Under the pieces are notes generated by a model. It made no database searches. It saw only the letters and a program-made list of their open reading frames with translations, and was not told where the DNA came from. A stretch of DNA of 64,000 nucleotides, from contig JAKVOB010000001.1 in assembly GCA_022483015.1 (NCBI GenBank), forward strand, positions 868,001 through 932,000. The letters run 5' to 3'. Position 1 is the stretch's first letter, and each line of letters opens with the position of its first letter. This DNA is from Atopobiaceae bacterium (lineage in GTDB: Bacteria; Actinomycetota; Coriobacteriia; Coriobacteriales; Atopobiaceae). This document shows, one piece after another, positions 5,218 to 55,124 of this stretch. A program made the translations under genes and the position numbers.

Positions 5218-6223
5218 ATGCCAGAGAAGCCATCCGTCGCCGTCATCATGGGCGGGACGTCGTTCGAGCGGGAGTTCTCGCTCGAGAGCGGCAAGGTCGT
5301 CACCGAGGCCCTCGAGGCCAAGGGGCATGAGGTGTTCCCCCTCGATGCCGATTCGAACCTCGTGGACACCCTTCGGGCCGAGAAGCCCGACGTCGCCTTC
5401 GTGGCGCTGCATGGCGCCGGCGGCGAGGACGGGTTCGTCCCGAGCCTCCTCGAGTTCCTCCGCATCCCCTACGTCGGCAGCCGTCCGCCCGTCTGCCGCG
5501 CCTCATGGTCCAAGTCGGACATCCCCTTCGTCATGAGGAGGTCGCTGTCGGCCGAGGACTCCGTGGCGCTGTGGCCTGCCGAGGTCGTCCTCCCCGGCAA
5601 GGCGTTCCGCGACCTCGGGGCTGCCAAGGCCCTCGACCTCATCCCAGACCGCGTCGGGAGCGGCTTCCCCCTGTGCGTGAAGCCCACGTGCGGCGGCTCC
5701 GCCATGGGCGTCACCAAGGTGGAGGATGCCTCCCAGCTGGGCGAGGCCATCATGGCCGCGCTCGCCTTCGATGACTCCGTCATCATCCAGGAGTGGGTCG
5801 ATGGCGTCGAGCTCTCGGTCACCGTGGTCGGCGACCCGAACGACCCCCAGGTCCTCCCTCCCGTCGAGATCGTGGTCAAGGACGGCATCTATGACACGGA
5901 CGCTCGCACGGACCAGGACCGCGTCGAGCTCTACTGCCCCGTGCGCACCGAGTCGCTCGGAGCCGACGAGGCCACGGCCCAGTCGGTGAGAAGCGAGGTC
6001 GAGCGTGCCGCCATCGAGGTCTATCAGGTCTTCGGGCTGCCGCGACCTCGCACGTGTCGACATGATCTGGGACGGCGCGGCACCGCGCGTCCTCGACCTC
6101 AAGATATTCCCCGGTCTGATGACGAGCAAGGCACTCGTGCCGCTCGAGGCCGAGGCGGCAGGAATCAAGCTTGACGATCTCCTCGAGGAGCTTGTCATGG
6201 GTGCTTACGAGAGAGGCTGCTAA
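5218..6223 (+). pseudogene. Divergent D-Ala-D-Ala ligase-like ATP-grasp gene, frameshifted near 6040
   Basis: A second Ddl-like gene, 3 kb after the true ddl. The N-terminus has GGTSFEREFS and HGAGGEDG, but the loop that is usually SALxMDK reads RASWSK, the KPxxEGSSVG loop reads KPTCGGSAMG, and the metal motif that is usually ExNTxPG reads DLKIFPG, so two metal-ligand positions differ. The frame from 5218 loses similarity after VYQVFGL; the next frame continues with RDLARVDM and runs to the stop at 6223. Removing one C at 6040-6042 joins the two parts into about 334 residues. Either a sequencing error or a true one-base insertion. It starts 2 bp after the aminotransferase and ends 2 bp before the ROK kinase. 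Confidence 0.75.
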
Positions 6224-6225
6224 CA

Positions 6226-7176
6226 ATGACTGCATCGCTGCTGGTAGGAATCGACGTGGGTGGTACGTCCATCAAGATGGGACTCATCACGATGGATGGT
6301 GAGATCCTGGAGTCGACCTCGGTCAAGACGGCCGAGCTCACGACGACGGCCGAGTTCGAGCATGTCGCGGGTGTGCTGGTCGAGATGGTCTGCGGGCATG
6401 GTGCGACTCCCGCTGACGTGGCAGGCGTGGGCCTGGCCGTTCCTGGTGTCGTCCGAGGCGACGGCAGCCTGGCCATGGCAGCCAACGTCACGCTCGACCT
6501 CGCTGGTCTCATGGAGGCCATCCGCGGGTCGTTCCCAGGACGCCCCGTGGTCCCCTTGAACGACGCCAACGCGGCCGCCCTGGGCGAGCAGTGGCAGGGT
6601 GCCGGCGGCGGCGTTCCCAACCTCGTCTTCGTCACGCTGGGAACAGGCGTGGGCTCTGGCATCGTGGTCGATGGCAAGTTGGCTGCGGGCTCCCACGGCA
6701 TGGCGGGCGAGGTCGGGCACATCAACGTGAATCCTGACGAGCGCCAGGCCTGCAACTGTGGTTGCCATGGCTGCCTCGAGCAATATGCCTCGGCCCGTGG
6801 CCTCATCCGACTGTATCGCGAGGAGTGCGCCCGCGCGGGCGTGGAGTGCGTGCCCATAGCCCATGCCACCGATGCCCTGGCCGTCTTCAACGCGGCGCGG
6901 GCCGGCGACGAGCACGCGCAGGTCGCCTGCGATGACCTCGCGGACTACCTGGGACGCGCCTTGGCCATAGTCGCCGTGGTGATCGACCCCGACATCTTCG
7001 TCGTCGGTGGTGGCATGTCGGGCGGCTGGGACACCTATGGGGAGGCCCTTGTCGCTCGTTACCAGCATTGGGTCATACCTGATGGCCGGGCCACGCCCAT
7101 CAGGGCGGCACGTCTGGGCAACACCGCCGGCATGCTGGGGGCCGCCGCGCACGCCAAGGCTGCAGCTGGCGTGTAG
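6226..7176 (+). CDS. ROK family sugar kinase (glucokinase-like)
   Basis: A 316-residue ROK kinase that most likely phosphorylates glucose, or a related hexose, on C6 in the cytoplasm. The phosphate loop GIDVGGTSIKMG is at the N-terminus, the GTGVGSGIV segment lies mid-protein, and the zinc motif CNCGCHGCLE lies near residue 175. There is no N-terminal helix-turn-helix, so it is a kinase rather than a ROK repressor. The ATG at 6226 is 2 bp after the preceding stop, suggesting translational coupling. In this window it could supply glucose 6-phosphate from the free glucose released by GH13 or other glycosidases; that role is inference. Exact substrate within ROK is uncertain. Confidence 0.87.
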   Translation: MTASLLVGIDVGGTSIKMGLITMDGEILESTSVKTAELTTTAEFEHVAGVLVEMVCGHGATPADVAGVGLAVPGVVRGDGSLAMAANVTLDLAGLMEAIRGSFPGRPVVPLNDANAAALGEQWQGAGGGVPNLVFVTLGTGVGSGIVVDGKLAAGSHGMAGEVGHINVNPDERQACNCGCHGCLEQYASARGLIRLYREECARAGVECVPIAHATDALAVFNAARAGDEHAQVACDDLADYLGRALAIVAVVIDPDIFVVGGGMSGGWDTYGEALVARYQHWVIPDGRATPIRAARLGNTAGMLGAAAHAKAAAGV

Positions 7177-10054: not shown

Positions 10055-10864
10055 ATGCCCGAGCACCCAGAAGCGGCCCATAAGGGAGCAGCGGTCTTCG
10101 CGGAGGAGCGCCGGGCGGCGATCCTCTCGATCCTCGACCGTGATGCCTCCGTACAGGTCGCCGACATCGCGGAGGCCTTCGGGGTCTCGAGGGTCACGGC
10201 CCGAGGCGACCTCGATGCCCTCGAGAGGGCTGGCAAGCTCAGACGGACGCACGGCGGGGCCGTGTCCCTCTCACGTACCCTCACGGTCTCGATCCAGGAC
10301 CAGCGTGTGAACGTCAACGTGGGTGCCAAGCAGGCCATCGCCCAGGCGGCCCTCGCCTACGTGCATGATGGGGACTCCGTCCTGGTCGACTCGGGGACCA
10401 CGGCCCTCGAGCTGGTGCGTGCCCTTGGCAGCCGCGAGGGCGTCACGGTGGTCACGGGTGACTTCACCATCGCCGACTACGTGGACCGGTCCCTGCCGCG
10501 TACCGACGTCGTGATGCTGGGAGGCGCGCTCCGTAAGGGGCATCGCTACACCTATGGCCCCCTTGCCCTGCGTTCCCTCGAGGCCCTCCACGCCACGAGT
10601 GCCTTCCTCTGTCCCACGTCGTACGTGCCGGGGTGCGGCCTCATGACCAACTTCGCGGCCATGGCCGAGCTCAAGGCGAAGTTCCTCGAGTGCGCCAGCC
10701 ACGCCTACGTGCTCATGGACGCGAGCAAGGTCGGCGCCCCAGGCCTGCTGAGGTTCGGCGGGCTCGACGTCGTCGAGGCCGTCGTCATGGACGCCGACCC
10801 GGATGGTGCCGTGGCTGCCGATCTCGACGGCACCCGGACCAAGCTCGTCCTGGCAGGGGAGTAG
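10055..10864 (+). CDS. DeoR family transcriptional regulator
   Basis: A 269-residue repressor of the DeoR family. The N-terminal winged helix has RRAAILSILDRDASVQVADIA, followed by a recognition helix at VSRVTARGDLDALERAG (about residues 45-65). The rest is the sugar-phosphate sensing domain, with the DSGTTALELVRAL and VVTGDFTIA stretches typical of the family. It is divergent from the PfkB kinase and aldolase, so it very probably controls that pair in response to a phosphorylated sugar. AGAAAGG precedes the ATG by about seven bases. The first 13 residues (EHPEAAHKGAA region) extend beyond the usual start of DeoR proteins. Confidence 0.88.
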   Translation: MPEHPEAAHKGAAVFAEERRAAILSILDRDASVQVADIAEAFGVSRVTARGDLDALERAGKLRRTHGGAVSLSRTLTVSIQDQRVNVNVGAKQAIAQAALAYVHDGDSVLVDSGTTALELVRALGSREGVTVVTGDFTIADYVDRSLPRTDVVMLGGALRKGHRYTYGPLALRSLEALHATSAFLCPTSYVPGCGLMTNFAAMAELKAKFLECASHAYVLMDASKVGAPGLLRFGGLDVVEAVVMDADPDGAVAADLDGTRTKLVLAGE

Positions 10865-10953: not shown

Positions 10954-11045
10954 ATGCAAGTAATGGACGACCAATCCCAGGTGAACTCGCGATGAGAAGG
11001 CCGCATCGCCCGTCTGTCTTTGATTCAGTCGTCCATTAGTTGAAG
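10954..11045. repeat. 92-bp palindromic element, copy 1
   Basis: A 92-bp element with terminal inverted repeats (left CAAGTAATGGACGAC, right GTCGTCCATTAGTTG, one mismatch) and an inner stem GCGATG/CATCGC. A second copy of exactly the same length lies at 12109-12200 in the same orientation. The two differ at 11 positions, nearly all in the middle. The differences in the inner stem keep base pairing (CATCGC becomes CGTTGC, giving G-U pairs). The stop codon and last residues (LMDD) of the neighbouring minus-strand gene lie inside this copy. Confidence 0.85.
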
Positions 11046-12020
11046 ATAGGAAGAGGAGTTGGGACCGGGACAGAGCACTTCCTCGCGGAGGGCGTCTCTT
11101 TGTGCGATGAGTCCGCTGTCCGACGAACTCGGCTTGATGTCGAGTGCCGCCTCAATGAGACGGGCGATTCGGTCGAGTTCATGGCGGTCGAGAATCTGGT
11201 CGTTGGTGACGGTGAGGACATCGATACCAACCTCACGAAGCTCGGCTCTTCGCGAGGAATCGTGTCCGAGCGACGTCGTTCCTGCGTGATATACGCTGCT
11301 CTCATATTCGACGTCGAGCTTGGCGTCCTGCCAATAGAGGTCGGCATAGCGACTCCCCGAGATGGTGCCACCTGTCCTGACCTCATGGTTGAGATGTGGT
11401 TTGGGAAGCCCATAACCACCAAGGGCTACGGGTAGGGTCAGCAGCATTGCCAGGTCCGTCTCTCGCGGCGATGCCGAGCCTGGCAGGATATGCCGGAGCG
11501 CTCTGATCGCCTTGCGATGTCCGCGATACCACCCCGAATGCCGTGCGGCCGAAAGAAGGTCGTCGGGCGTGGCGATCGCAGGCCGCGAGGAGAGTCCCGC
11601 CTGGCCTGAGGGGTCGACGACGTAAGAGCCACAGAGCTCGTATCCCAAACGTATGAGTTCGATGAGGTCGAGCGTAGCTGCCATCTGGAGAAACGTGAAT
11701 GCTGGTGAGCTTATGAGCACATTAGGGCCGATGAGCCTGAAAGCCCCAGGAGGCGGCTCCTCCTGCCAGACATGACATTTCAGCAAGTCAGACCTTCTCC
11801 GAGCATCACCAGAGGGCACGAGGACATCGAGCTTGCCCTGTCGTGCCCACGGGAAGTCGAGCTCCGAGAGGGCCTTCTCGTCGGCAAAGGGGACATGGAG
11901 GTAGTAACGCCCAGCGCTAAGGTCATGGCGCATATGCCGTGGGTCCTCCGCAGGGGCATCGCTCCTGCCGATCATCCTGAGACGGCGGAGTGCGGTGCCA
12001 TGGCTGAGCAAGAGCGTCAC
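11025..12020 (-). CDS. Hypothetical protein with a DUF559-like / PD-(D/E)XK-like C-terminal domain
   Basis: A 331-residue protein of unknown function. The GTG at 12020 is a firm start: AAGGAGG lies five bases upstream. The N-terminal two thirds resemble nothing I recognise. From about residue 225, YADLYWQDAKLDVEYES, then SRRAELREVGIDVLTVTNDQI, follow the layout of DUF559/Vsr-like nucleases (an Asp, then a strand with acidic residues, then an Arg-containing helix and a short strand); such domains also occur in AbiEi-like antitoxins. The usual catalytic Lys is not obvious, so activity is doubtful. The gene is bracketed by two 92-bp palindromic repeats, with copy 1 supplying its final codons. 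No partner toxin, methylase or transposase is adjacent. Confidence 0.55.
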   Translation of the reverse strand: MTLLLSHGTALRRLRMIGRSDAPAEDPRHMRHDLSAGRYYLHVPFADEKALSELDFPWARQGKLDVLVPSGDARRRSDLLKCHVWQEEPPPGAFRLIGPNVLISSPAFTFLQMAATLDLIELIRLGYELCGSYVVDPSGQAGLSSRPAIATPDDLLSAARHSGWYRGHRKAIRALRHILPGSASPRETDLAMLLTLPVALGGYGLPKPHLNHEVRTGGTISGSRYADLYWQDAKLDVEYESSVYHAGTTSLGHDSSRRAELREVGIDVLTVTNDQILDRHELDRIARLIEAALDIKPSSSDSGLIAQRDALREEVLCPGPNSSSYLQLMDD

Positions 12021-12108
12021 GGGTGCCTCCTTGGCCTGGCCACGTTCGGCGGAAGGGACGGCGGGAATCAGCAGATGATGACGGAAGCTTAGGGGGATTC
12101 TCGTGGAT

Positions 12109-12200
12109 ATGCAAGTAATGGACGACCGAGCCCAGGTGAACTTGCGATGAGAAGGATACGTTGCCCGCTTGTCTTGGATTCAGTCGTCCATTAGTTGAAG
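12109..12200. repeat. 92-bp palindromic element, copy 2
   Basis: Second copy of the element at 10954-11045, same orientation and length, about 88 percent identical by direct comparison. It sits 89 bp upstream of the start of the orphan gene and shares the ends ATGCAAG and TTGAAG. The gap from 12021 to 12325 otherwise holds only the terminator of the lacAB transcript. Confidence 0.85.
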
Positions 12201-12264: not shown

Positions 12265-12304
12265 AAGGGCGGCCGACGGGGAACTGTCCCTGCCGGCCGC
12301 CCTT
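12265..12304. terminator. Terminator after lacB
   Basis: A perfect 11-bp stem (AAGGGCGGCCG / CGGCCGCCCTT) just beyond the lacB stop, reading on the minus strand. It separates the lac isomerase operon from the orphan gene. Confidence 0.65.
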
Positions 12305-12325: not shown

Positions 12326-12844
12326 CTAGTCGTGATAGTAGCCGGCATCCCACTTTGCGTTGATCTCGTCGAAGAAGTGGGGGTCTGCCTGTGCCTTGGC
12401 ATCACCCTGCCAGACGGCGTCGATCTTGGCGACGAGCGCGTCATTGGCGGGCGTGGCGTTATACGTCGCTGCGAGGAAGGCGTCGACGATGTCGGCGACC
12501 AGGAACTCGCCGGTGATCTTGCCGCCGAAGCCGCAGACGTTGGCGTTCAGGTTCTCGCGGGCATAGACGGCACTTGCCATGTCGCGCACGAGCGGGCAGC
12601 GCGCACCCGGGACCTTGTTGACGGAGTTGGTGATGCCCACGCCGGTGCCGCACATGACGACGCCCGCGTCTGCCTTGCCGGATGCCACGCACTCGCCCAC
12701 GCGCTTGCCGTAGATGGGGTAGTGCGTGCGGGTGTGGTCATAGGTGCCGCAGTCGATGACGGTATGGCCCATCTTCTTGAGGTGGTCCGAGAGCGCCATC
12801 TTCTCGGTGGTGACGATGTGGTCGCAGCCAATCGCGATGATCAT
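12326..12844 (-). CDS. lacB: Galactose-6-phosphate isomerase subunit LacB
   Basis: A 172-residue member of the RpiB/LacAB isomerase family, which as a LacAB complex converts galactose 6-phosphate to tagatose 6-phosphate. The N-terminal MIIAIGCDH, the [16 protein letters not shown] loop and length (LacB is usually about 171) identify the B subunit; the C-terminal tail WDAGYYHD also fits. The ATG at 12844 has AAAGGA upstream. It lies 42 bp after lacA and is the last gene of a lacR-lacA-lacB run on the minus strand. It needs LacA for activity, since active-site residues come from both subunits. Confidence 0.92.
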
Positions 12845-54931: not shown

Positions 54932-55034
54932 GTGCGGGGAGGCCGGGGCCAGGCGAGGCCATCCCGGTGTCTTCCCATTCCTGATGTGTGACGGCGCGGG
55001 TGTCGGTCCTCTGGTCCGGGTGCCTTGGGCGTCT

Positions 55035-55124
55035 TGTTACACGACCCCTCCGGTTTGGCAGAATCGCGTCACGCGACCCCTCGCGTTCGGCAGGAATCCT
55101 GCGAACAGGAGGGGTTAGGTAACA
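55035..55124. repeat. Palindromic element upstream of the Tad locus
   Basis: TGTTACACGACCCCTCC at the left and GGAGGGGTTAGGTAACA at the right pair over about 17 bp with a few mismatches. Inside are two imperfect direct repeats of about 24 bp beginning CGACCCCTC (55042 and 55074), and an inner odd palindrome CAGGAATCCTG. It lies in the 527-bp gap between rsgA and the Tad operon. A structured RNA or a small mobile repeat are both possible; nothing codes here. Confidence 0.55.

Follow-up and report, generated by a model that had tools for sequence, protein, structure and literature searches.

A Vsr-like nuclease gene bracketed by its private, dispersed palindrome: a probable REPIN–RAYT-like unit built on an unrelated nuclease

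The window analysed here is a stretch of 64,000 nucleotides, corresponding to positions 868,001-932,000 of a 2.28 Mb single-contig genome (G000 in the following). In this window, a nuclease gene on the minus strand lies between two copies of a palindromic element, and the resulting unit is located between the genes of a DeoR-family regulator and of an RpiB-like isomerase:

10055..10864, plus strand: DeoR-family regulator, a neighbour outside the unit, which follows its 3' end
10954..11045, no strand assigned: element copy 1, a palindrome of 92 bp with arms at 10957-10971 and 11028-11042, downstream of the nuclease gene
11025..12020, minus strand: nuclease gene, 331 aa, GTG start, with an AbiEi-like domain and an EDxHD (Vsr-like) nuclease domain
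11133..11477, minus strand: C-terminal nuclease domain, residues 182-296, with E187, D227, H245 and D254 conserved (structure and profile match)
11481..12020, minus strand: N-terminal domain, residues 1-180, with a fold like the AbiEi antitoxin C-terminal domain (6y8q, Z 8.2 over 119 aa; pLDDT 89.7)
12109..12200, no strand assigned: element copy 2, 88% identical to copy 1, with arms at 12112-12126 and 12183-12197
12326..12844, minus strand: RpiB/LacA-LacB-like isomerase, a neighbour outside the unit

The initial annotation of this DNA had described two 92-bp copies in the same orientation, and re-measurement gives the same picture: both copies are 92 nt long, with a start-to-start distance of 1,155 and an identity of 88.0%, and BLAST of the 64 kb window against itself returns no further pair at E<1e-8, the E-value of these two copies being 3e-26. 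The terminal inverted repeats that the copies were said to share were located in both of them as 15-nt arms (CAAGTAATGGACGAC / GTCGTCCATTAGTTG), each copy being an imperfect palindrome. The coordinates also agree with the proposed arrangement, in which copy 1 supplies the end of the gene, i.e. its final six residues (LQLMDD) and the stop codon, while copy 2 precedes the start, beginning 88 bp upstream of the start codon. A chance repeat is ruled out by the self-BLAST together with the comparison of bracketing with control positions described below.

The suggestion that G-U changes keep the inner stem paired holds on the plus strand only; on the minus strand, the same positions of copy 2 are A-C mismatches and the stem is lost. 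The G-U pairing is based on two copies, and the further copies 3 and 4 (see below) differ in their inner sequence. The case for a selected palindrome is carried by the arms, not by the inner stem. Between copy 2 and the RpiB-like gene, positions 12265-12304 hold another strong inverted repeat (AAGGGCGGCCGACGGGGA / TCCCTGCCGGCCGCCCTT), which is probably a transcription terminator.

The window-type palindrome has two more copies in the genome, both solitary and intergenic:

G000:C1:293356-293433: copy 3, with a 78 bp TAA-to-TTA span
G000:C1:745474-745551: copy 4, with a 78 bp TAA-to-TTA span

The span is the same as in the window copies, and the interiors have diverged. At copy 4, one arm position is altered on both sides (TAACGG / CCGTTA vs TAATGG / CCATTA). 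With four window-type copies in G000, the possibility raised in the initial annotation that the element occurs only at this locus is ruled out; since dispersed copies were detected through searches alone, this count and those given below may be too low. The search of 139 further genomes of the family for the window-type pattern (<=3 mismatches) found none, which rules out the window type as an element common to the whole family. Three matches came from Azospirillum and Syntrophobacterales, and these resemble palindromes that arise by chance. The search for a known RNA family gave nothing credible, two microRNA matches lying far below threshold, and a protein pattern search of the genome contigs gave no match. 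A viral origin is rejected, as viral contigs did not contain the palindrome and no phage protein gave a match. Clean empty sites for the solitary copies of G000 were not obtained, its sole congener (G001) being too diverged.

The window protein was modelled with AlphaFold from an alignment of 58 homologues (pLDDT 87.6). In the model, residues 182-296 match the catalytic domain of I-Bth0305I (3r3p; Z 9.7, rmsd 2.5, 96 aa), the Neisseria endonuclease-like protein 3hrl (Z 8.4), and E. coli Vsr (1vsr; Z 7.5), and the sequence profile also matches 3r3p (E 5e-4). The catalytic residues are well preserved among the homologues, E187 in 57/58, D227 in 58/58, H245 in 56/58, and D254 in 53/58, with all four present in 52 of the 58. 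According to the predicted structure, the window protein has both the fold and the residue set of the EDxHD enzymes. The 6y8q match covers chain residues 67-195, without the AbiEi winged helix; the part that resembles the AbiEi C-terminal domain sits at the N-terminus of the window protein, for which no winged-helix match was found. This AbiEi-like domain is a candidate for the recognition part of the protein. With respect to curated families, the window protein scores 14.6 bits against Pfam DUF559 (PF04480), under the cut-off of 20.6, and 11 of the 58 homologues match DUF559 at E<=0.01; NCBIfam has no name for the window protein, and the Pfam scan of the 58 members returned no Y1 family.

The genes are numerous: 45 of the 60 genomes in the relatives search have protein matches, up to 15 per genome, and the gene tree mixes genomes (27 label changes vs a minimum of 11). 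The named relatives, from a plasmid collection, belong to Collinsella aerofaciens (Coriobacteriales) and are annotated as hypothetical proteins; by inference, we place the unit family in Coriobacteriales. G000 itself has six matches, two of which are the halves of one split gene. This split paralogue, L101 (G000:C1:625840-627458), consists of two overlapping frames and is apparently frameshifted; the two repeats that belong to it, 195 bp long, nevertheless share 95% identity, and its four solitary copies are still present.

Bracketing by repeats is a family-wide trait, which extends the observation that the initial annotation had made in the window only. We considered 13-kb stretches around about 60 family genes and compared the 800 bp upstream with the 800 bp downstream of each gene, using positions 4 kb away as controls. 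Matching repeats are present on both sides of 35/61 genes vs 2/123 controls at E<=1e-6 (Fisher p about 1e-18), a strict count from which the tRNA-like pair at L116 was left out. At E<=1e-3 the corresponding numbers are 41/61 and 6/123 (43/64 and 10/127 in a first run), and an inverted repeat within 260 bp in both flanks is found for 29/63 genes vs 6/254 controls. About a third of the homologues have no detectable repeat pair. Within a pair, the two copies are in direct or inverted orientation and mostly measure 60-270 bp, and their sequence varies from gene to gene, as illustrated by the boxes CGTTCGATTCCGCGC at L099, TTGTTACACAACCCC at L100, and GTACACGATGC at L120. In some families the boxes recur at about 32-33 bp (~32 bp in the G021 family). 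At L116 (G016) the matching pair consists of two near-identical tRNA-like genes, not palindromes, and at L138 (G006) the repeat takes the form of arrays of a ~33-bp unit with ACTTGTGCGG, which is also dispersed in the genome.

It should be mentioned here that a universal core motif, CCGCAGGT...GGCGAGAAG, was noticed by eye in many elements. The full motif is hardly enriched and we do not propose it as general; the core word CCGCAGGT shows a modest enrichment (13/64 vs 13/254, p 3.5e-4), and an EM motif search returned only a weak GGCGAGAAG-like signal. As a separate observation, the word CTTCTCGCC / GGCGAGAAG recurs in the intergenic spacers of genus g4 (L288-L302, L311, L316), at occupied and empty sites alike.

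Three other bracketed paralogues in G000 each have a repeat type that is also found solitary elsewhere in the same genome, with three copies of the L099 type, four of the L100 type, and four of the L101 type. One of them lies in the window:

55033..55124, no strand assigned: solitary L100-type element (paralogue near G000:C1:1180.4k), between RsgA-like and CpaB-like genes

The solitary copies are palindromes, and one of the L099 type has a symmetric change in both arms. A search with twenty repeat types from 11 genomes against 12 genomes (E<=1e-5) gave about 150 matches, each listed match lying in the genome of its own bracketed nuclease; the twenty types from other genomes had no match in the genome of the window. 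The largest family, the L111 type in G021, comprises 2 flanking and about 16 solitary copies that align full-length, while for several types in G016, G023, and G001 the search returned the flanking pair alone; most of the types tested do have solitary copies in the genome to which they belong. Among the solitary copies examined, 28/29 are intergenic and 2/29 lie between divergent genes, as judged with a crude gene caller; those of G021 are mostly located about 40-90 bp beyond a stop codon, and some copies lie between convergent genes. Covariation was examined in the G021 family, the one family tested, with a divided outcome: in the main stem, 89.7% of cells are paired vs 30-44% in slid registers, but the excess of covariation over within-column shuffles is slight, 41/500 shuffles being as high.

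The repeat sequence follows the lineage of the protein. For pairs of bracketed loci, the repeats match in 4/4 cases above 70% protein identity, in 5/12 at 50-70%, in 1/14 at 40-50%, and in 6/518 at 30-40%, the last all being matches of 13-22 bp; the 10 matches listed under 30% are mostly pairs at one shared genomic site for which protein identity was not computed. The same behavior is seen at individual sites. The sister paralogues L099 and L100, which are 55% identical and reside in one genome, have unrelated boxes. Four genomes with orthologues (59-64% identity) at the L121 site have boxes that are related, where they can be read; two others have a different paralogue there (34-38%), and the boxes at this place are unrelated. 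The L133 site holds an orthologue (92%) in one genome and, in three others, another paralogue together with another repeat.

The initial annotation had also raised the case of relatives that carry the gene at this place without the repeats. This is not what is found in G001, the sole congener, where an orthologue of 50% identity is located at the same place after the DeoR gene, its frame containing one stop codon near the C-terminus, with one palindrome on each side (78 and 77 bp). The arms of both copies are GAGAACGA, compared to TGGACGAC in the window, and the inner GANTCCAAG is retained in one of them. Beyond the G001 unit, 36 bp from the 3' end of the DeoR gene occur a second time (86%; L093, about 5770-5810 and 7055-7095). 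It resembles a long target duplication, and none is seen in the window.

The initial annotation had suggested a comparison of strains for empty sites; here, units of the family were compared among sister species, and the whole unit was found present or absent at the same site. Probes for the flanks of 11 units were searched in the sister species, and occupancy was taken from the distance between the probes. Six congeners are occupied at the L121 site, and four are empty-sized there; the numbers of occupied and empty-sized genomes are six and one for L122, five and one for L133, and two and four for L135. An occupied site need not hold an orthologue, as the L121 and L133 examples given above show. 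Among sisters with interpretable distances, L120 and L123 are occupied only in the source genome, and one further sister has a much longer insert at the L120 site. The empty sites come from species at about 80-90% DNA identity, and some junctions are blurred; the junctions nevertheless place the unit boundaries near the outer ends of both repeats. In the comparison of L120 with G137, for example, homology ends at reference position 556-572 and resumes at 2103-2108, the repeats being at 549-714 and 1939-2102, and at the L121 site of G116 the flanks are only about 4 bp apart. At L289, L291, and L295-L297, the gene is absent and a different solitary hairpin takes its place. In G144, the L133 site holds a single L133 repeat and no gene, while G029 and G139 have the element-gene-element arrangement. 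Clean empty sites without any element are found at L294 and L290. No consistent target duplication was found at the empty and occupied sites of the sister species, and no insertion of a solitary element was observed at the level of strains.

REPIN-RAYT systems are the best-known example of tiny palindromes that replicate as a population within a bacterial genome and are served by a dedicated HUH enzyme. REPINs are composed of two inverted REP sequences and a diverse spacer, and are duplicated by RAYT genes, which are described as single-copy and vertically inherited (PMC8049555). The present elements are similar in having two inverted arms with a diverse spacer, in their ability to form hairpins, and in being dispersed between genes; furthermore, the dedicated gene is bracketed by its own repeat, which is dispersed in the same genome, and there is one repeat family per gene lineage. 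The enzyme, however, is EDxHD/Vsr-like, and the HUH Y1 domain (PF01797) is absent. Moreover, each genome contains many independent gene-repeat pairs, arm sequences differ between members of a genus, and the genes are multi-copy, with units gained and lost within genera rather than inherited vertically as single copies. The unit genes are therefore not RAYTs. Transposases of the Y1/RAYT family are absent from G000, G001, G004, and G022, all of which bear elements, and present in six other genomes. The nuclease is the simplest common factor. Movement driven by a RAYT or IS200 enzyme is ruled out for the genome of the window, where no Y1_Tnp was found.

Other known systems are related to parts of the protein. 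Vsr and DUF559 proteins share the nuclease fold, but the window protein differs from them by its score under the Pfam cut-off, the additional AbiEi-like domain, and the repeat association. I-Bth0305I, the characterised enzyme closest in fold, dimerises on a ~60 bp target (PMC3943268); it is likewise a multidomain protein and has the same catalytic fold and residue set. In contrast to it, the window gene is outside an intron, with no intron or intein seen, and it is bracketed by two full palindromes, copies of which are dispersed. The resemblance to AbiEi antitoxins and Rv2827c concerns the C-terminal antitoxicity domain of AbiEi, whereas here a nuclease domain is fused to it, the winged-helix DNA-binding domain is outside the matched part, and the adjacent genes encode the DeoR regulator and the RpiB-like isomerase, not an AbiEii toxin.

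On the basis of these results, the window unit is probably one member of a large nuclease-plus-palindrome family that behaves like a REPIN-RAYT system on an unrelated nuclease. The association of gene and repeat, the dispersal of the repeats, and the turnover of the units are solidly observed, and from them we infer that the protein may bind, cut, and copy its element. Each nuclease would have a private family of palindromic elements of about 60-270 bp, two copies bracketing the gene and the others being solitary, mostly between genes just after stop codons. Probably acting as a dimer, like I-Bth0305I on its target, the protein would recognize the inverted boxes in its own element; by analogy, the dimer geometry of that enzyme suits an element with inverted arms. 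A nick or cut would then be made by the protein at the element, and repair would copy the element into a new intergenic site, occasionally as part of the complete element-gene-element unit. Two readings offered in the initial annotation, a REP-like element pair and a protein that acts on its own hairpins, both fit this evidence, the second to the extent that the protein would act in this manner.

We have also considered a regulatory reading, in which an AbiEi-like protein with a repurposed nuclease domain would repress its own gene, with the palindromes as operators and the solitary copies as its regulon. The AbiEi-like fold predicted for residues 1-180 would suit a regulator too, AbiEi-type antitoxins autoregulate via inverted repeats in their promoter (PMC7319586), one copy lies upstream of the gene, and the box spacing of about 32-33 bp in some families suits cooperative binding. 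However, the AbiEi DNA-binding domain is the N-terminal winged helix (PMC7319586), outside the matched chain residues, the second copy is downstream of the gene, and the solitary copies lie after stops or between convergent genes, with only the two clearly promoter-to-promoter cases mentioned above. The elements also align full-length, as copied units would, the catalytic residues are retained, and the whole unit is gained and lost together with both copies. We thus regard a regulatory role as unlikely.

A homing scenario, in which a freestanding homing-type gene targeted older palindromes and repair left a copy on each side, appears still less probable. It draws on the proximity of the nuclease domain to the EDxHD homing endonuclease I-Bth0305I, on the L133 site with its one element in G144 and complete units in G029 and G139, and on intergenic sites that hold different units or solitary hairpins in sister species. 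Yet insertion should split the target into two halves instead of giving two full palindromes, element-free sites exist at L294 and L290, and the solo copy of G144 could equally be a deletion product.

That the palindromes are non-autonomous MITE-like elements moved by an unrelated transposase, with the nuclease as a passenger, is highly improbable: the inverted terminal arms, fixed length, and variable interior of the window family are MITE-like, and the transposase survey covered the Y1/RAYT class, but the repeat type goes with the adjacent nuclease even between L099 and L100, the four element-bearing genomes have no Y1/RAYT transposase, and the G000 matches to TCAAGTAATGGACGACC include no full-length insertion sequence ending in the window arms. 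The same two points, i.e. that the repeat follows the nuclease lineage and that these genomes have no Y1/RAYT enzyme, weaken the idea in the initial annotation of a cassette moved by a transposase encoded elsewhere.

Returning to the reading of a nuclease that multiplies its own palindrome, the literature search, which left subscription papers and preprints largely outside, found no description of DUF559/EDxHD genes with such repeats. We lean, by a modest degree, toward an undescribed replicating unit of Coriobacteriales in which a Vsr/EDxHD nuclease with an AbiEi-like domain would recognize and multiply its own private palindrome, with several independently diverging pairs per genome. If this is true, the bracketed genes constitute a natural library in which each nuclease comes with its target sequence. 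The many protein-repeat pairs, among them orthologues whose boxes stay related and close paralogues whose boxes are unrelated, open the recognition code of a poorly studied nuclease fold to direct tests. A second, unrelated enzyme class doing likewise would mean that such a lifestyle arose more than once, and would offer an independent test of why palindrome populations persist. Finally, a multi-copy gene family that is hardly named in curated family libraries would acquire a function.
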